Assembly: GCA_900320595.1 (NCBI GenBank)
Contig: ONSW01000008.1
Location: forward strand, 1-44,030
Reading direction: 5' to 3'
Length of the DNA: 44,030 nt
Source: an uncultured Eubacteriales bacterium
Lineage (GTDB): Bacteria; Bacillota; Clostridia; Oscillospirales; Oscillospiraceae
A program made the translations under genes and the position numbers. Below the pieces are notes generated by a model. It was not told the origin of the DNA. It was given only the letters and a program-made list of their open reading frames with translations, and did no database searches. Positions 336 to 43,675 of this stretch are shown here, piece by piece (the first letter of the stretch is position 1; the number at the start of each line of letters is the position of its first letter).

Positions 336-3300
336 TCAGATAGCGTTATTTTCGCCCTTGTGTGCGCCGCCTTTGCGCAGCAGCGGGCGTTTCCAGCGGC
401 GGCCCTTGCCGCTGCCGAAGACGAGGAAATATGCGGCGATGAGGCAGCCGAGCAGCGCCAGCAGCATCAGGATGAGCCAGATGCCGCTCTGGCCGCGGCG
501 GGCGCTCTGGGTGGTCTGGGTACCCTCGATGGAGAACACGGTCTCAACGCTCTCGCCGCCGCTGTATTTTGCCTTCAGTGTGTGGCTGCCGTCGGAAAGC
601 GTGTTGAGATAGGCGGCCTTCAGCCAGATCTCCGTGCTGCCGGAGGCCGAGGTATAGGCGCTGCGGTCAAGGTCCTTGCCGTCGATCTGCAGTCCTTCAA
701 AGCCGTCATAGTCGTGGTCAAGCTTGATGAACAGCGTGCCTGCGCTGCCGCCGACCCAGGTGGGGCCTTCGCTCGACGCGCCGGACTCGTCGCTGACGGT
801 CAGCAGACCGTATTGGTAGCGGATCGCATAGTTCTTGGTGACGTCCGCGCCGCTGTTCTTGTCGGTGACCTTGACGTCGGCGACGGTGTTGTCGCTCGAG
901 CCGACCTTCGTCTGGGTGCCGGTGATGCGCAGCGTGACCTGGTGGTCTTCGACGCGGCCGGTGATGTTCGGGGTCGAACGCTCGGTAAGCGGCGTGCCGT
1001 CATAGACCTTGTTCGCGGCCTTGGTCTCGATCACGAGCTCGCGCTCGCTGATCGTATAGCTGCCTCTGCTGCGGGAAATGTTGAACTGATTCGTCACGTC
1101 GGCGCCGGAGGCGTTGCGGATCGTGACGCTCTTGATCGTGACGTCGTATTTACCGACGTCGGTGACGCTCTCGGGGTTAAAGGTCGCGTCGATGCGATAG
1201 CCGGCCGGCAGCGTGCCGCCCGTGACAAGGATGTCGTTGCCGGTGAAGCGATAGGCCTTGCCGTCATACACCTTGCTGTGATCGCCGAGAGAGAGCGTGA
1301 TGTCCTTGACGGGATTGCTGCCGACGGTCAGCGTGCCGGTCGCGGTCGTCACGGCATAGTTTGCCGTCACGTCGGCGCCGGAGGCGTCGGTGATCTTGAT
1401 CGAATTCTTCGAGATGCTGTTGGCGGAGCTGCCGGTCTGGGTCTGCGAGCCGACGACGGTTGCCGTCAGCTTGTGGCCGCTGACCAGCTCGCCGGAGGTG
1501 ATGGACCAGCTGTTGCGCGTGAGCGCGCTGCCGTCATAGATCTTCGAGGCGGAGGCGGCCGTGATCGTGATCGGGCGCGCCTTGACGGTCAGCTTGCCGG
1601 GCACGACGGTGATCGTGTATTTGTCCGTCACGTCCGTTTCGCCGTTTTTCACAGTGAAGGCGGCCTTGACCTCCTTCTCGCCGACATTGGTCAGCTCGCC
1701 GTCAAATGCGCCGGGAACAAGCTTGTCGCCCTCGGCGAGCGCGCCGGACGTAATCTCATAGTCCTTTGCGGCAAGCGCCTTGCCGTCATAGACCTTCTCC
1801 ACGCTCTTGATCGTGATCGTAAGAGCGGAAGAAGAGGACGAGGAGGTGACCGTCAGCGTGCCGTCCTTCAGCGTAAAGGCATACTGGGCGGTGACGTCCT
1901 TGCCGTCAGGGTCGGTGACCTTGACGGACTTGGCGCTGATGACGTTCGCCGAGGAGCCGACCTTGGTCTGGCTGCCGCTGATCGAAAGCGCAAGCGTGTG
2001 TCCCTTCACGAGGGAGCCGGCGGAAATGGTATAGCTGTTCTTTGTCAGCGCCGTACCGTCGAATTCCTTGGTGTCGGAGTCGGCCGTGATCGTGATCGGC
2101 CGGGGCTTGACAACAAGCTTGCCGGGCACGACGGAGATCTCATAGTTCTCCGTCACGTCGCTCTCGCCGTTCTTCACGGCGAAAACGGCCTTGATGCTTC
2201 CCTGACCGACGCCGGTGATGCCGCCCTCAAAGGAGAGGGGAACGAGCTTGTCGCTGCCGAGCAGCGAGCCGGAGGTCAGCTCAAATTCGCCGCTCGCGGC
2301 GCTCTCGCCGTCATATTCCTTTTCCGTGTCCTTGACCGTCACGGTCAGCTTCTGCTTTTCCGTGCGGGGGACGACGGTGATCGAGCCGTTGATGACGCTG
2401 ATGTTATAGTTCGCGCTCACGTCGCGTCCGCTGCCGTCCTGGATCTTGAACACGGCCGAGCCTGTGCTCGTGCCGGGCAGCGTCTGCCGGCCGGAGTAAG
2501 TGGGAGTGGCGCTGTGTCCTTCGGCAAGCGAGCCGAAGCTGATCGTATAATCCGAGGGCATAAGCGGGAGAGCGTTGTATTCGCCCGCAACGTCGCTGAT
2601 AGTGAAGGTAACGCCGCGCTGTACGATGCGCAGCGTGCCGGGTCTGACGACGAATTCGTATTCGCCCGTGACGTCTTCCTCGCCGCGCATGACGTGAACC
2701 TGGGAGAGATCGAGCGTGGCCTCGCTCTCGCCGGCGTCGGTGCGCGAGGGCGCGAGCGCGCTGTCGGGAACGATCAGCTCGTCTCCGCTCTTCACCTCGC
2801 CGTATCGGATATAGCTTGCGGTGAGCGGCGTGCCGTCATATTCCTTTTCGCCGCCGGTAAAGGAGAAGATGATCGCGTCCTTCCACTGTGCCTCAAGCAC
2901 GGCGGAGGAGCAAAGCACAATCTTGTCGCCGCCCTTGACGATGGCGGAGGCGCCGTTGGAAAAGCTGAGCTTCCAGCCCGTAAAGATTTTTCCGAGCGTG
3001 AGTGCGTGGGAACCGGCCTGCGCGTCGAGCGCGGCGACCGTATAGTCGGCAGAGCCCGCGCCTTCTGGGATCGCCAGCTCGACCGAGTCGCCTCCCGCGG
3101 CGACGGGAGAGGGGAGCGCGGCCGCCGTGCCGGCGGTATAGCTCACGGTGAGCGGGACGGCGGGATCGACGCGGTCAAGCTCGATGCGGATCGTATAGCG
3201 CTCGCCGCTGCCGTTGAAGACCGCGCCGACGGCCGATGCGTCGTAGCTCTCGGCAAAGAGCGCGGCGGGCAGCACGACCGCGCCTGCGGCGTCGGTCTTT

Positions 3301-3689
3301 GCCCCGGCGATCGAAAGAAGACTGCGGCTTTCAGCGGCGGCTTCGCTCCCGTCCGCGACAATCATCACCGTGCGCAGCACATAGCCCGCGGGCGGCGTGA
3401 GCGTCACACCGCCGCGGCGCAGATCTGCGACGGTGGGCGATGCAACGGGCGTGCCGGAGGCGTCTTTTCCGAAATCCACGGAAAAGCCCTTGCCGAGCGC
3501 ACTTTCGACCTCCTCGGCGGTGGTGAGCGTAAGCTCGTGTCCTTCGCCGTCCGTCGCCTTGACGGACCAGCCGATCGAAGCCGTGTCCGCCGGTCCTTCC
3601 GCAAAGGCGGCGGGAGCGGCGAGCGCGAAGAGCTGGACGACAAGCACGAAGGCAAGCAGGACGATACCGATTTTAGATGACTTGCTCAT
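336..3689 (-). CDS. Large secreted MBG/YDG-repeat surface protein with C-terminal membrane anchor
   Basis: A surface or adhesin-like protein of about 1117 residues; its ligand is not evident. A signal peptide (SKIGIVLLAFVLVVQLFALA, ending in APAAFAEG) starts the protein. Eight repeats each begin with a K-x-YDG-x-L/A motif near residues 282, 370, 457, 542, 632, 717, 806 and 894, about 85-90 residues apart. Each is followed by an S-G-x-L or A-E-G-H stretch and a DVTxxYxI strand, as in MBG (mostly bacterial Ig-like) domains. A transmembrane helix lies near residues 1065-1090 (IWLILMLLALLGCLIAAYFL) followed by a basic tail. I see no LPxTG or NPxTN motif. The ATG at 3689 is chosen over 3776 because AGAGGAG precedes it and the likely promoter lies at 3783-3810. 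A sortase gene lies just upstream. Confidence 0.85.
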   Translation of the reverse strand: MSKSSKIGIVLLAFVLVVQLFALAAPAAFAEGPADTASIGWSVKATDGEGHELTLTTAEEVESALGKGFSVDFGKDASGTPVASPTVADLRRGGVTLTPPAGYVLRTVMIVADGSEAAAESRSLLSIAGAKTDAAGAVVLPAALFAESYDASAVGAVFNGSGERYTIRIELDRVDPAVPLTVSYTAGTAAALPSPVAAGGDSVELAIPEGAGSADYTVAALDAQAGSHALTLGKIFTGWKLSFSNGASAIVKGGDKIVLCSSAVLEAQWKDAIIFSFTGGEKEYDGTPLTASYIRYGEVKSGDELIVPDSALAPSRTDAGESEATLDLSQVHVMRGEEDVTGEYEFVVRPGTLRIVQRGVTFTISDVAGEYNALPLMPSDYTISFGSLAEGHSATPTYSGRQTLPGTSTGSAVFKIQDGSGRDVSANYNISVINGSITVVPRTEKQKLTVTVKDTEKEYDGESAASGEFELTSGSLLGSDKLVPLSFEGGITGVGQGSIKAVFAVKNGESDVTENYEISVVPGKLVVKPRPITITADSDTKEFDGTALTKNSYTISAGSLVKGHTLALSISGSQTKVGSSANVISAKSVKVTDPDGKDVTAQYAFTLKDGTLTVTSSSSSSALTITIKSVEKVYDGKALAAKDYEITSGALAEGDKLVPGAFDGELTNVGEKEVKAAFTVKNGETDVTDKYTITVVPGKLTVKARPITITAASASKIYDGSALTRNSWSITSGELVSGHKLTATVVGSQTQTGSSANSISKNSIKITDASGADVTANYAVTTATGTLTVGSNPVKDITLSLGDHSKVYDGKAYRFTGNDILVTGGTLPAGYRIDATFNPESVTDVGKYDVTIKSVTIRNASGADVTNQFNISRSRGSYTISERELVIETKAANKVYDGTPLTERSTPNITGRVEDHQVTLRITGTQTKVGSSDNTVADVKVTDKNSGADVTKNYAIRYQYGLLTVSDESGASSEGPTWVGGSAGTLFIKLDHDYDGFEGLQIDGKDLDRSAYTSASGSTEIWLKAAYLNTLSDGSHTLKAKYSGGESVETVFSIEGTQTTQSARRGQSGIWLILMLLALLGCLIAAYFLVFGSGKGRRWKRPLLRKGGAHKGENNAI

Positions 3690-3782
3690 TTTGCGTTTCT
3701 CCTCTGAACAGGACGGGGTAATTCTTAAGATTCTTAAGCGATTTGTTCCCTGAATGAACGAATTTGCTGTTTTCATGGTCTC

Positions 3783-3810
3783 ATTATATCATGTTACGTT
3801 TTGTTTACAA
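3783..3810 (-). promoter_or_regulatory. Probable sigma-A promoter of the MBG-repeat gene
   Basis: On the minus strand TTGTAA (3805-3810) and TATAAT (3783-3788) are 16 bases apart. This implies transcription starting near 3776 and a leader of about 85 bases before the ATG at 3689. The leader contains a doubled TTCTTAAG element. Confidence 0.6.
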
Positions 3811-3855
3811 GATGTCGGAGGCTGAATAATTCTTAAGGAAAAGAGTCTCCTTCCT

Positions 3856-3888
3856 TAAAAAAGCAGACCGGAGGAAGCTCCGGTCTGC
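3856..3888 (-). terminator. Terminator of the sortase gene
   Basis: Stem GCAGACCGGAG (3863-3873) pairs with CTCCGGTCTGC (3878-3888) around a four-base loop. On the minus strand it is followed by a run of six T. It lies about 20 bases after the sortase stop codon. Confidence 0.85.
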
Positions 3889-3907
3889 GCCGCCGTGCGA
3901 ATAGGGC

Positions 3908-4723
3908 TCAGCCGATCTCCACAAGCTTGCCGAAGAGCACAAAGCGGACGTCTTCGGCGGAGTAGGTGCAGGTCGAGAGCGTGATGATCCGGTCGGTGCT
4001 GCTCACCTCGACGGAGCTGGAGAAATCGGAATAAAGCCGTACGGTGTTGAGGTATGCGGTAAAGTCGCCCTCCGTTGCAAAGGCGGAGGCATAGACAAAG
4101 GATTCGGGGTCCGTCGTGAAGCCCGCGAAGAAATCGACGCGGTAATTCTGATCGGGCGTATTGAGATACATGACGGGATGCGCGTCGTAAAAGGCCTGGT
4201 CGGTGTAGTCGTCGACCAGCGCGAACATCGAGCCGTCGCGCATGTTGTGGCCGTAGATGATCGTGTTCTGTCCCGAAAAATCGTCCGGGCAGGTGAAGTC
4301 CGCGAACAGCGAGCCGCCCACATTGTACGAGCCGTCAAGAAAATGGTCCAGATAATAATCGTTGTCATAGCCCTGGACGACCGGATAGTTGATCGCCGTA
4401 TTCGGCAGATAGAGCCAGCCGATAACGTCGTCGCTGCGCTGTGAGAGCAGGCCAAAGTCGATCGAGATCGGGGAAACGTCAAGCGGTGCTTCCGCGCCGA
4501 CAACGATCACCCCGTCGTCGGAAGGACTGCTCCCGGCGGGCGAGCCCGTCTCCTCCCGGCCGCCCGTAAGCGTCGAGAAAACAGAGCCGGAAAGCGAATC
4601 ATAGCGATCCGCCGCCTCGTGATAGCCCCGCTGGATCGAATAGATCTTCCAGCCGCTGACCAAGGCCGCCAGCAAAAGCAAAATAACAAGCGCCGTCAAT
4701 AACGTGCGCGTAAGACCTCTCAT
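3908..4723 (-). CDS. srtB: Class B sortase
   Basis: Membrane-anchored cysteine transpeptidase of 271 residues that cleaves a sorting signal and links surface proteins to the cell wall. An N-terminal transmembrane helix (about 7-25) is followed by a linker and the sortase fold from about residue 85. The catalytic triad is visible: His159 in IIYGHNM, Cys252 in TLSTCTY and Arg260 in DVRFVLFGKL. The TLSTC context and the long region between His and Cys fit class B. GGGAGG precedes the ATG. It is a single gene ending in its own terminator, next to the MBG-repeat protein. That protein lacks an obvious sorting signal, so whether it is a substrate is open. Confidence 0.93.
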   Translation of the reverse strand: MRGLTRTLLTALVILLLLAALVSGWKIYSIQRGYHEAADRYDSLSGSVFSTLTGGREETGSPAGSSPSDDGVIVVGAEAPLDVSPISIDFGLLSQRSDDVIGWLYLPNTAINYPVVQGYDNDYYLDHFLDGSYNVGGSLFADFTCPDDFSGQNTIIYGHNMRDGSMFALVDDYTDQAFYDAHPVMYLNTPDQNYRVDFFAGFTTDPESFVYASAFATEGDFTAYLNTVRLYSDFSSSVEVSSTDRIITLSTCTYSAEDVRFVLFGKLVEIG

Positions 4724-4866: not shown

Positions 4867-4915
4867 TAATTCAAATATTTTAATAAAAAAATTTGGACTA
4901 ATCAGGAGATGAACG

Positions 4916-6091
4916 ATGGATATCTTTGAAAAATGCTACCGTCCTTCCATGGCGGATGAGGTCCGGGAAAAGGGGATCTACCCCTATTTCCATGCGCTCG
5001 AATCCCGGCAGGACACCGAGGTCATCATGGAGGGCAAGCGCCGCATCATGCTGGGCTCGAACAACTATCTCGGCCTGACCACCGATCCGGAGATCATCGA
5101 GGCCGGCATCCGCGCCTTTGAGCGGTACGGCAGCGGCTGCTCCGGCTCGCGCTTCCTCAACGGCACGCTGGAGATGCATCTAGAGCTCGAGGCTGAGCTG
5201 GGCAAATTCCTGCGCAAGAGCGGGATCGTGACCTTCTCGACCGGCTTCCAGTCCAACCTGGGCATCCTCTCGGCGATCGTCGGACGCAACGACTATGTCA
5301 TCTGCGACAAGGAAAACCACGCCAGCATCTATGACGGCTGCCGTCTCAGCTTCGGCAAGATGCTGCGCTACGCGCACAACGACATGGAGGACCTGGAAAA
5401 GCAGCTGCAGCGTGTGCCGGAAGATTCCGGCAGCCTGATCGTCACCGACGGCGTGTTCAGCATGGGCGGCGACATCGCGAAGCTCCCGGAGATCGTGAAG
5501 CTTGCGAAGCAGTACGGCGCGCGCGTCATGGTCGACGACGCGCACGGTCTCGGCGTCATCGGCGAGGGCGGCCGCGGCACGGCCAGCCACTTCGGCCTCG
5601 AGGATGAGGTCGACATCTACATGGGCACCTTCTCGAAGTCGCTTGCGAGTCTCGGCGGCTACATGGCGGCGGACGCGCGCGTGGCGGACTATGTGCGCCA
5701 TGCCTCACGCCCCTTCATCTTCTCGGCCTCCATCACGCCGGCGAGCTGCGCCGTCGCGCTCACCGCGCTGCGCAAGCTTGAGGCGCACCCCGAGCTGCCG
5801 CAGCGGCTGCAGAGCCTGTCCGCCTATGCGCGCGAGGGCTTCCACAAGCGCGGCGTGCGCATCCGCGAATCGATCGCCGACGTCCCCACGCCGATCATCC
5901 CGCTCTACACCAACGACATCATGAACACGCTCGAGACCTCGCGGCGGATCTATGACGCGGGCGTTTACGTCAATCCCGTTCTGCCCCCCGCCACGCCGCC
6001 GGCCGACTGTTTGCTCCGCACAAGCTACATGGCCACGCACACCGAGGCGCTTCTGGACGAGGCGATGGACATCATCGCCGCCAATCTGTAA
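4916..6091 (+). CDS. Alpha-oxoamine synthase, probable serine palmitoyltransferase
   Basis: PLP-dependent enzyme of 391 residues that condenses an amino acid with an acyl thioester and releases CO2. Family hallmarks are SNNYLGL (48-54), YGSGCSGSRFLNGT (71-84), a stacking His135 in ENHASIYDG, Asp208 and His210 in DDAHGLG, and the PLP lysine Lys241 in GTFSKSLASLGG. Several stretches resemble bacterial serine palmitoyltransferases of Bacteroidetes rather than BioF or Kbl. These are IYPYFHALES near the N-terminus, HNDMEDLEKQLQ, and the C-terminal VNPVLPPATPP with YMATHTEALLDEA. The likely reaction is L-serine plus a fatty acyl-CoA giving 3-ketosphinganine. A gene for a reductase of the right type follows 19 bases downstream. 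Substrate assignment comes from remembered motifs, so 2-amino-3-ketobutyrate ligase or 8-amino-7-oxononanoate synthase activity cannot be excluded. Confidence 0.75.
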   Translation: MDIFEKCYRPSMADEVREKGIYPYFHALESRQDTEVIMEGKRRIMLGSNNYLGLTTDPEIIEAGIRAFERYGSGCSGSRFLNGTLEMHLELEAELGKFLRKSGIVTFSTGFQSNLGILSAIVGRNDYVICDKENHASIYDGCRLSFGKMLRYAHNDMEDLEKQLQRVPEDSGSLIVTDGVFSMGGDIAKLPEIVKLAKQYGARVMVDDAHGLGVIGEGGRGTASHFGLEDEVDIYMGTFSKSLASLGGYMAADARVADYVRHASRPFIFSASITPASCAVALTALRKLEAHPELPQRLQSLSAYAREGFHKRGVRIRESIADVPTPIIPLYTNDIMNTLETSRRIYDAGVYVNPVLPPATPPADCLLRTSYMATHTEALLDEAMDIIAANL

Positions 6092-6110
6092 GAGAGGGAA
6101 GGGGAGAGAC

Positions 6111-6905
6111 ATGGGCAAAGTCGTATTGATCACCGGCGGCAGCTCCGGCATCGGCAAAAACGCCGCGCTCGCGCTGGTGAAGATGGGCTGCACCGTTTAT
6201 GAAATGAGCCGCAAGGATTCCGTCGGCCTTGAGGGCGTCCGCCACATCCGCGGCGATGTCACGGACGAGACCCAGGCCGCCGCGGCGGTCAGAGAAGTCG
6301 TCGAGCGGGAGGGCCGGCTCGACGTGCTGATCAACAACGCGGGCTTCGGCATCTCCGGCGCCGTCGAGTTCACGCCGCCGAGCGAGGCACGGCGGCAGTT
6401 TGACGTCAACTTCTTCGGCATGGTGAACATGAACAAGGCCGCGCTTCCGGTCATGCGCGAGCAGGGCGGCGGCAGGATCGTGTGCATGAGCTCGGTCGCC
6501 GCGCCGATCGCGATCCCGTTCCAGGCCTACTATTCCGCCTCCAAGGCCGCTGTCAGGACCTACTGTCTTGCGCTGCACGAGGAGGTGCGCCCCTACGGCG
6601 TGGAGATCTGCGTCATCATGCCCGGCGACATCGCCACGGGCTTTACCGCCGCCCGCGCCAAGAGCGCCGAGGGCGACGACGTCTACGGCGGGCGCATTTC
6701 GCGCTCGGTCGCCGTGATGGAGCACGACGAGCAGACCGGCATGACGGCCGAGTTCGCCGGCAGCTTCGTGGCGAAGATCGCGACGAAAAAGGGCCACAAG
6801 CCCGTGGTGACCATGGGAGGAAAGTACAAGGTCTTCGTTTTCCTCACAAGGCTCATGTCCACGCGCCTGATGACCTTCCTCGTCGGCAAAATCTACGCAT
6901 CCTGA
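6111..6905 (+). CDS. Short-chain dehydrogenase/reductase, candidate 3-ketosphinganine reductase
   Basis: NAD(P)-dependent reductase of 264 residues. It shows the cofactor motif TGGSSGIG (8-15), NNAG (75-78), catalytic Ser128 in MSSVA and Tyr141/Lys145 in YYSASK. The C-terminal segment KYKVFVFLTRLMSTRLMTFL is hydrophobic and could sit on the membrane, as in ketosphinganine reductases. The ATG at 6111 is chosen because GGGAAGGGGAGAG precedes it and homology begins there; the frame is open further upstream only by chance inside the previous gene. It is co-transcribed with the alpha-oxoamine synthase, and I infer that it reduces that enzyme's 3-keto product. The SDR family is broad, so the substrate is inferred from context. 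Confidence 0.8.
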   Translation: MGKVVLITGGSSGIGKNAALALVKMGCTVYEMSRKDSVGLEGVRHIRGDVTDETQAAAAVREVVEREGRLDVLINNAGFGISGAVEFTPPSEARRQFDVNFFGMVNMNKAALPVMREQGGGRIVCMSSVAAPIAIPFQAYYSASKAAVRTYCLALHEEVRPYGVEICVIMPGDIATGFTAARAKSAEGDDVYGGRISRSVAVMEHDEQTGMTAEFAGSFVAKIATKKGHKPVVTMGGKYKVFVFLTRLMSTRLMTFLVGKIYAS

Positions 6906-6930
6906 AAGAGCGGCTTGAAAAGAAAAGAAA

Positions 6931-6966
6931 AAGACGGCGTGACCTGAGTCGGTCACGCCGTCTTTG
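6931..6966. terminator. Bidirectional terminator between the SDR and Nudix genes
   Basis: A perfect 15-base stem AAAGACGGCGTGACC and its complement, with a six-base loop, lies between two convergent genes. An A-rich run on the left gives a U-tract for the minus-strand transcript. Confidence 0.8.
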
Positions 6967-42985: not shown

Positions 42986-43675
42986 TTATGCTCTTTTCCT
43001 TGCGCAGAGCCTCGGCTTCCAGTAATCGTCCCAATAGACAAACAGCTCGGCCACCAGGCTGACCGGCAGTGCGGCGAACACGTCGACCATCGAATGCTGC
43101 TTGACGAACGCCGTGGCGAGACAGATCATCACGACCACGAACGCCAGCAGAACTTTCCACACCGGCTTGAGATCCTTGTTTTTCAGCCCGACGGACAGAA
43201 TGCCCATCGAGTACGCCACGTGCAGCGACGGGCATACGCCCGTCGAGGTGTCGAAGGAGTAGATAAAGGCCATCAGCCGGGTGAGGAAGTTGTCGCGCAC
43301 GAACGCCTCCGGCCGCAGATCCTGGCGCGAGGGATAGAGGATGTAGATCGTCATCGCGATGAGCTGGGTGATGAAGATAAAGAGGGAGAGCTTGGAAAAG
43401 CTCTTAGGATCATACAGCAGCGTATAGATCAGTGATCCGAAAACCAGCGCGTACCAGAAGACGTAAAACACGGCGAAGTATTCGCAGAAGGGGATCATGT
43501 CGTCGAGCGCGCAGTGCATCGGATGGCAGATCTCCGGCGGGATCAGATTCTCGGTGAGAAAGTAGAAACTGAAATAAAAGAGCCAGCCGAAAATTGCCAG
43601 CTTCATATGGGAAAACTGGGGCGTATTGAGCTTTGAAAAACGGAATTCACGGTAATCAACTACCGGCTTCTTCAT
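42986..43675 (-). CDS. PAP2-family membrane phosphatase
   Basis: Integral membrane protein of 229 residues with about five to six helices. The acid-phosphatase motifs are present: SRQDLRP (part of KxxxxxxRP), CPSLHVAYSMG (PSxH) and AFVKQHSMVDVF (Hx3D). It may dephosphorylate phosphatidate, undecaprenyl diphosphate or another lipid phosphate. The start overlaps the upstream acyltransferase gene by 20 bases, so the two are probably coupled and act in membrane lipid metabolism. Confidence 0.9.
   Translation of the reverse strand: MKKPVVDYREFRFSKLNTPQFSHMKLAIFGWLFYFSFYFLTENLIPPEICHPMHCALDDMIPFCEYFAVFYVFWYALVFGSLIYTLLYDPKSFSKLSLFIFITQLIAMTIYILYPSRQDLRPEAFVRDNFLTRLMAFIYSFDTSTGVCPSLHVAYSMGILSVGLKNKDLKPVWKVLLAFVVVMICLATAFVKQHSMVDVFAALPVSLVAELFVYWDDYWKPRLCARKRA

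Follow-up and report, generated by a model that had tools for sequence, protein, structure and literature searches.

Can a bacterium of the Clostridia make sphingoid bases? The question is raised by a two-gene locus at positions 4916 to 6905 of the window, that is, the whole stretch of 44,030 nucleotides analyzed here (contig C20 of the source genome G000, 2.07 Mb and 92.65% complete). The locus consists of a gene for an alpha-oxoamine synthase resembling serine palmitoyltransferase (SPT) (P0001, 4916..6091, plus strand, 391 aa) and, 19 bp after its stop codon, a gene on the same strand for a short-chain dehydrogenase/reductase (SDR) with a hydrophobic C-terminus (P0002, 6111..6905, 264 aa). 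The preliminary description of this DNA had suggested this Firmicute, in hedged terms, as a possible producer of sphingoid bases or of an analogue. That suggestion was supported by the placement of the synthase in the SPT clade and by the rejection of its placements with 2-amino-3-ketobutyrate CoA ligase (KBL) and with BioF. With a probability of roughly 0.68, the two genes form a unit whose product is a sphingoid base.

The landmarks behind the suggestion were confirmed in the gene pair, namely the 19-base gap, the hydrophobic end of the SDR and three features of the synthase gene, all on the plus strand: Lys241 (5636..5638), which aligns with the pyridoxal 5'-phosphate (PLP) Schiff-base lysine of SPT, the motif YGSGCSGSRFLNGT (residues 71-84, 5126..5167, including N82) and the motif VNPVLPPATPP (residues 352-362, 5969..6001, including N353). 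When the synthase was compared with NCBIfam, the best model was NF047600, SPT of the Cytophaga-Flavobacterium-Bacteroides (CFB) group, with 530 bits under a curated cut-off of 640, followed by SPT-BetaP (391), the BioF/Kbl subfamily (373), glycine C-acetyltransferase (368) and BioF (357 bits). The two SPT models outranked all of the 11 other NCBIfam families matched, and a Phocaeicola SPT used as control reached 703 bits with NF047600. Since the score falls below the curated cut-off, the synthase would represent a separate SPT lineage. Among PDB entries the SPT of Sphingobacterium multivorum (3a2b) came first with 430 bits, ahead of a dual BioF/KBL enzyme (246), KBL (240), the cysteate acyltransferase 28eh (233), a BioF-like enzyme (216) and BioF (194). 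A search of the genome with PF00155 detected seven proteins and, since the six others had no significant match to the synthase, this is the only alpha-oxoamine synthase found in the genome.

For the phylogeny, the clostridial sequences were divided into window-type synthases (c1, 39 tree rows) and a second clade (c2, 10 rows). In a tree of 60 rows, c1, c2 and four SPT references formed one clade with a support of 100/96, outside KBL, BioF and HemA, and the same grouping was obtained in trees of 26 rows (100/98) and 36 rows (99/96). These trees contained four SPT, three or four KBL, two BioF and one HemA reference, no SulA or CqsA row, and several long branches. In the approximately unbiased (AU) test, forcing c1 and c2 together with KBL (p 0.0002) or with BioF (p 0.0016) was rejected, while their grouping with the Bacteroidota SPT alone was not (p 0.33). 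The position inside BioF or KBL that the preliminary description had named as refuting its suggestion was not found in any of the three trees, the synthase grouping with the SPT references in all of them.

The residues specific to each family were then counted. SPT-only columns were defined as those in which the four SPT references agree on a residue that six KBL, BioF and HemA references lack; the synthase has 12 of these 13 residues, the exception being R317 where the SPTs have G. When the SPT references were held out in turn, they kept 13/15, 13/15, 13/14 and 13/18 of such residues. The synthase has none of the 36 KBL-only residues and four of the 14 BioF-only ones. The synthase shares N82 and N353 with the SPT references and with none of those of KBL, BioF and HemA. 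Under our own assignment of the columns, the PLP lysine K241, the stacking histidine H135, N49 and R368 are present in 49/49 clostridial rows, the Sphingomonas SPT reference carrying Tyr in the column of the conserved Asn (N49). N82 and A271, both SPT-only and near the active site, are each kept in 49/49 rows as well. By its trees and residues, therefore, the synthase belongs to the SPT lineage as a separate branch, and its identification as KBL or BioF was rejected by the tree tests and the residue counts. An alpha-oxoamine synthase of unclear type, encoded on a Bacteroides fragilis conjugative plasmid (L094:3803-5038) and having five of the 13 SPT-only residues, branched just outside the SPT clade.

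The second gene probably encodes a 3-ketosphinganine reductase. Its best NCBIfam model was NF049977 KdsR (3-ketodihydrosphingosine reductase), with 235 bits, followed by an unnamed oxidoreductase subfamily with 200 bits, and the SDRs of three further window-type loci (L059, L097 and L117) likewise had KdsR as their top model. The cofactor motif TGGSSGIG (residues 8-15, 6132..6155), the catalytic Ser128 (6492..6494) and the motif YSASK with the catalytic Tyr141 and Lys145 (6531..6545) were located on the plus strand. In an alignment of 31 SDR rows, T8, G9, G13, I14 and G15 of the cofactor motif, with its glycines, are invariant, and the three catalytic residues are present in 31/31 rows. This motif and the Ser-Tyr-Lys triad are common to SDRs generally, so they are not specific for a 3-ketosphinganine reductase. 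Arg34, after the second strand, is also invariant in the alignment, and we take it to fit NADPH.

That the two genes are functionally linked was supported by their co-occurrence in genomes of the window's family and by their arrangement in relatives. The family sample comprised 150 genomes, in which the synthase was counted at E <= 1e-100 and the SDR at E <= 1e-45. The synthase was detected in 55 of them and the SDR in 60, with both genes in 52, only the synthase in three, only the SDR in eight and neither in 87 (Fisher p 7e-28, uncorrected for shared ancestry). The two genes were adjacent in 46 of the 52 genomes that have both, separated by 11-103 bp as judged by the ends of the matches, and lay on different contigs in the remaining six; in one of these (G437) the linkage could not be judged because the match to the synthase is cut by the contig end. 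Among the three genomes with the synthase only, two matches were partial (G414 and G499), and in G507 a more distant SDR (35% identical) lies head-to-head with the synthase.

A scan of contigs gave 307 stretches encoding a relative of the synthase (tblastn E <= 1e-3), and the best 80, with identities of 71-97%, were used to compare neighborhoods. By the titles of their records they belong to Oscillospiraceae, Ruminococcaceae, Lachnospiraceae, Clostridia and similar groups, many of them being rumen or gut metagenome-assembled genomes, and in one case a DSM strain is given, that of Sporobacter termitidis DSM 10068 (L059). The next gene on the same strand is an SDR in 67 of the 80 loci, a recurrence well beyond chance, and three run out of locus; the frames of the synthase and the SDR frequently overlap or almost touch. 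Both genes, compared with four relatives, showed fewer amino-acid-changing (dN) than silent (dS) differences per site. Against L010 the values of dN and dS were 0.029 and 1.16 for the synthase and 0.085 and 1.39 for the SDR, and against L011 they were 0.122 and 0.60 for the synthase and 0.281 and 0.70 for the SDR. The selection on both genes is purifying.

Outside these close relatives the order of the genes changes. The c2 sample consisted of ten loci from the phylum search with 54-57% identity (L106-L115, L153-L162). In eight of the ten, the SDR lies tail-to-tail with the synthase on the opposite strand, and it is often followed by an OmpH/Skp-like gene, a name given from reading the sequence. 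Ten further loci of lower identity (L190-L199) branch at the base of c1. In the four that form two deep window-side branches (L196-L199, 58-61% identical), an SDR with 35-47% identity was found head-to-head with the synthase in every case. As regards other ARRANGEMENTS, three arrangements join the synthase and the SDR as neighbors, but some branches are excepted.

A conserved third gene was also sought around the 80 relatives, with neighboring genes picked by conservation owing to the long antisense open reading frames in G+C-rich DNA, and no gene was a repeated neighbor of the pair beyond roughly a dozen of them. The clearest recurrence was that of a MarR-type gene, which immediately precedes the synthase in eight of the 80 loci (L015, L031, L038, L041, L047, L080, L086 and L087), the one of L015 matching Pfam MarR. 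The nearest homologue in the source genome (G000:C66:3078-3362, L133, 47%) is far from the pair, between an apparent rpsB and an MBOAT-like gene, both named from reading the sequence, and showed no link to the pair.

Synthase carriers amounted to 55/150 genomes of the family, 36/245 of the order and 20/398 of the phylum at E <= 1e-100, with one match per listed carrier. Even two genomes of the same genus in the family sample differed, the synthase being present in G401 and absent from G505. The synthase is a patchy, accessory trait. The outer-membrane family Omp85 was detected in six of the six c2 genomes tested and in none of the 14 c1 genomes tested, the source genome included, so the c2 carriers look diderm and the c1 carriers monoderm.

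The bacterial enzyme known to add the second fatty chain of sphingolipids is a ceramide synthase. In the available text of PMC9386255, the ceramide synthase (CerS) of Proteobacteria is given as CC_1154, and YghO of Escherichia coli is listed as its counterpart. A search model (A3) was built from four sequences of the type of a Roseomonas plasmid gene (L089:22724-23881) that lies near lptF/lptG and has a 45.7% match to a record annotated as yghO. With it, no CC_1154/YghO-type ceramide synthase was detected in the source genome at E <= 1, an absence that is not certain because the genome is 92.65% complete. At E <= 1e-20 the CerS family was found in 60 of the 398 genomes of the phylum sample, with a strong enrichment in synthase carriers (17/20 against 43/378 of the others; Fisher p 1e-12, uncorrected). 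Each of the ten c2 genomes has one to four genes of this family. In the window's family, members were detected in four of the 150 genomes, each of which is one of the 55 synthase carriers (p 0.017). The caution of the preliminary description about a ceramide synthase was borne out for this known type. The clostridial members are only 27-36% identical to the references, the family is broad, and synthase carriers form no single clade in its tree (23 loci and four references, L176 being left out for an internal stop), so the enrichment is to be taken as a hint only, and the use of the CerS family as proof of ceramide synthesis was weakened despite it. As for the missing ACYLTRANSFERASE, these results, read plainly, mean that in the window's family steps one and two mostly occur without this known third one. 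That N-acylation can take place outside the usual producers has a precedent in the accessible part of PMC10626005, where Bifidobacterium is said to convert imported sphingolipids to dihydroceramide.

Under the favored explanation, the synthase would join L-serine to a long-chain acyl thioester, either acyl-acyl carrier protein (acyl-ACP) or acyl-CoA, with loss of CO2, and the product would be 3-ketosphinganine. The SDR would then reduce the ketone with NAD(P)H, giving sphinganine or a variant in chain length or branching. Since none of the 14 c1 carriers tested, the source genome among them, has Omp85, this product would sit in a monoderm cell; and since the source genome has no ceramide synthase of the CC_1154/YghO type, its N-acylation, if any, would use another enzyme. 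A wider picture can be drawn more tentatively, with a chance that we place somewhat short of even. The monoderm Clostridia of gut and rumen would be an overlooked source of sphingoid bases, and the SPT that they carry would be a third lineage, its gene sharing an operon with that of a dedicated ketoreductase. Most carriers in the window's family would make or store the base without the known bacterial ceramide synthase, either through an unrecognised N-acyltransferase or as a one-chain amino lipid, and a diderm sister lineage of the same phylum would keep a likely complete ceramide pathway.

Several observations weigh against the favored explanation. The synthase of the window and three other clostridial synthases that were scanned all score under the curated SPT cut-offs; one SPT-only residue is missing and four BioF-only residues are present; and the groups of the AU test were named after the first tree had been seen. 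The SDR stays below the KdsR cut-off of 400 bits, and KdsR is only the third model for four c2 SDRs, behind unnamed oxidoreductase models. Moreover, SDRs of Prevotella, Latilactobacillus and Mitsuaria (L134, L137 and L139), whose best model is another subfamily, still reach 210-231 bits on KdsR; since the score of the window SDR is near that of other SDR subfamilies, its assignment leans mostly on context. That context has exceptions. No SDR follows the synthase in ten of the best 80 loci, and in six of these (L015, L017, L027, L030, L058 and L079), which were scanned for the next gene, the genes in that place were unrelated to each other (a thiamine pyrophosphate enzyme, an M20 peptidase, DUF3048, no family, Ig-like and SpaA). 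In the deep window-side branch f141 (L190-L195, 52-54% identical), four of the six loci have no SDR on the stretch and one ends too soon downstream; its sole SDR, in L192, lies about 0.7 kb downstream and is 40% identical. The co-occurrence test ignores kinship, and eight of the 150 genomes have the SDR without the synthase. A second search of these eight, at E <= 1e-20, gave a distant synthase in three (211-247 bits) and none in five. Finally, no gene for an acyl carrier or an acyl-ACP ligase adjoins the pair in the window, no known ceramide synthase was detected in the source genome, and the CerS family is present in just four of the 55 carriers of the family. The distant synthases of the three SDR-only genomes are those of L143-L145 (G531, G496 and G462); L143 clusters with KBL, and the partner of L145 is the B. 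fragilis plasmid enzyme, both on long branches.

Other functions were weighed for the pair. The synthase may be SPT-like in fold and lineage and nevertheless use alanine or glycine, in which case its product, once reduced by the SDR, would be a lipid of the 1-deoxysphinganine type or another 2-amino-3-hydroxy lipid. Its lineage is distinct from the characterized SPTs, with 51% identity to two Bacteroidota references and a score below the equivalog cut-off, serine specificity is not readable from the sequence by the methods used, and 1-deoxyceramides have been observed from gut Bacteroidota, according to the accessible portion of PMC11334938; but the retention of the SPT-only residues N82 and A271 near the active site in 49/49 clostridial rows speaks against it, and we regard this possibility as unlikely. 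We hold as a little less likely still that the pair supplies an alkyl-amine portion for a lipid signal or a secreted natural product, and not a membrane sphingolipid. Such a role would agree with the lack of a recognised lipid-assembly gene beside the pair in the window, with the patchy spread across family, order and phylum, and with the MarR-type gene upstream of the synthase in eight of 80 loci, the last two of which would fit a regulated accessory trait. A biosynthetic cluster should, however, keep other genes, and none recurs beside the pair beyond about a dozen of the 80; and the strong conservation (71-97% among the best 80) is more like that of primary lipid metabolism.

Two readings are far less probable. 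That the synthase is KBL or BioF, with an SDR of threonine breakdown or biotin metabolism, would be in keeping with the common superfamily, with the 290-373 bits of the KBL and BioF models and with the four of 14 BioF-only residues, yet it is very improbable given that the AU test rejects both placements, that 0/36 KBL-only residues are present, that all 11 other NCBIfam families score below the two SPT models and that the flanking genes encode a sortase and a NUDIX protein. Scarcely to be expected is a sulfonolipid precursor made by a cysteate acyltransferase (SulA/CFAT) and a capnine-type reductase. The chemistry is parallel, as set out in the part of PMC9304779 that was available, and the producers of SulA include gut Bacteroidota; but the position of the SulA Lys281, which in SPT is Ala by the same partial source, is occupied by Ala271 in the window synthase (5726..5728, plus strand, from the alignment with our own column assignment) and by Ala in 49/49 clostridial rows, and the match to the cysteate acyltransferase 28eh (233 bits) is weaker than that to SPT (430). 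The sulfonolipid reading was rejected on this lysine, the trees containing no SulA sequence.

As regards the surroundings of the pair, Shine-Dalgarno-like sequences were read on the plus strand ahead of both genes, AGGAGA at 4904..4909, 6 nt 5' of the synthase start, and AGGGGAG at 6100..6106, before the SDR start. The immediate neighbors are a class B sortase gene (TIGR03064), upstream and divergent, and the gene of a NUDIX protein, convergent; the statement of the preliminary description that no N-acyltransferase or further reductase stands beside the pair is right for these two. A hairpin of 15 bp at 6930..6965, between the pair and the NUDIX gene, is terminator-like on the minus strand and perhaps bidirectional; the scan that gave it found five terminator-like sites, with 2.2 expected in shuffles. 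Beside the sortase and also divergent, upstream of the pair, an MBG/AgI-II-type surface protein of 1146 aa is encoded (339-4723, minus strand), and genes related to it lie upstream of the pair in L008-L010. Far from the pair, on the minus strand, a PAP2-like membrane protein is encoded (42989-43675) that could be assigned to no family with confidence, DUF7103 scoring below its cut-off; a role as head-group enzyme was weighed and found no support. Its gene overlaps another on the same strand at the contig end (43659-44015), which by its motif we presume to encode the C-terminal part of a PlsC-type acyltransferase.

Gut sphingolipids are usually credited to Bacteroides and the host, and the survey of Stankeviciute in 2022 reportedly included an actinobacterial producer. 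The literature searched contained no report of SPT or of sphingoid bases made by Clostridia in the portions available, and a mention in subscription papers or supplements is possible. Gram-positive producers are mentioned as smaller groups in the consulted part of PMC11087976, and a broad survey of Spt-like proteins from the Black Sea does not contain the words Firmicutes, Bacillota or Clostridi in its main text (PMC11334938). Host immunity and metabolism are affected by the sphingolipids of gut bacteria, which are credited to Bacteroidota in the available texts of PMC10191378, PMC10865984 and PMC12816596. SPT-type chemistry itself is known; what appears to be new here, as judged from the sequences, is that monoderm Clostridia would have it too, through a third lineage whose gene forms an operon with that of a ketoreductase. 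With about a third of the sampled genomes of one clostridial family (55/150) carrying an SPT-type synthase, counts of producers that use the Bacteroides SPT alone may miss them. The presence of the synthase in Sporobacter termitidis DSM 10068 makes the question of sphingoid bases directly testable. If they are made, two further questions arise, namely what use a cell lacking an outer membrane has for such a base and by which enzyme it is acylated.

Compared with the known systems, KBL and BioF share the fold family of alpha-oxoamine synthases with the window enzyme, and their grouping with it was rejected by the trees and the residue counts. SulA (28eh in PDB) has in common the superfamily and the type of reaction, and the window enzyme lacks the lysine that marks SulA, with 233 against 430 bits. 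For the reductase, the KdsR family gave 235 bits against a cut-off of 400, with other SDR subfamilies close. BT_0972 is a proven 3-ketosphinganine reductase of Bacteroides, with SDR catalytic residues and a Gly-X-X-X-Gly-X-Gly motif of the same kind as those of the window SDR, according to the accessible text of PMC9278070; the two were likened through the NF049977 KdsR model and not through the sequence of BT_0972 itself. The proteobacterial system, represented by Caulobacter (CC_1162-1165 and CC_1154) and Roseomonas (L089), has an SPT-type first step and a separate reductase, as the window pair would, and its two SPT references are 39-42% identical to the window synthase. It includes AcpR, AasR, an epimerase-type CerR and a CC_1154-type CerS, none of which stands beside the window pair, whose reductase is a classical SDR. 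Closest is the SPT of Bacteroidota (Sphingobacterium multivorum, 3a2b; NF047600; BT_0870 type), which has 51% identity, the same catalytic residues and a place in the same clade. From it the window synthase differs in scoring below the family cut-off, in belonging to a separate lineage and in its tandem SDR, the one Bacteroidota SPT locus that was read (L088) having no SDR adjoining, unlike the pair of the window.

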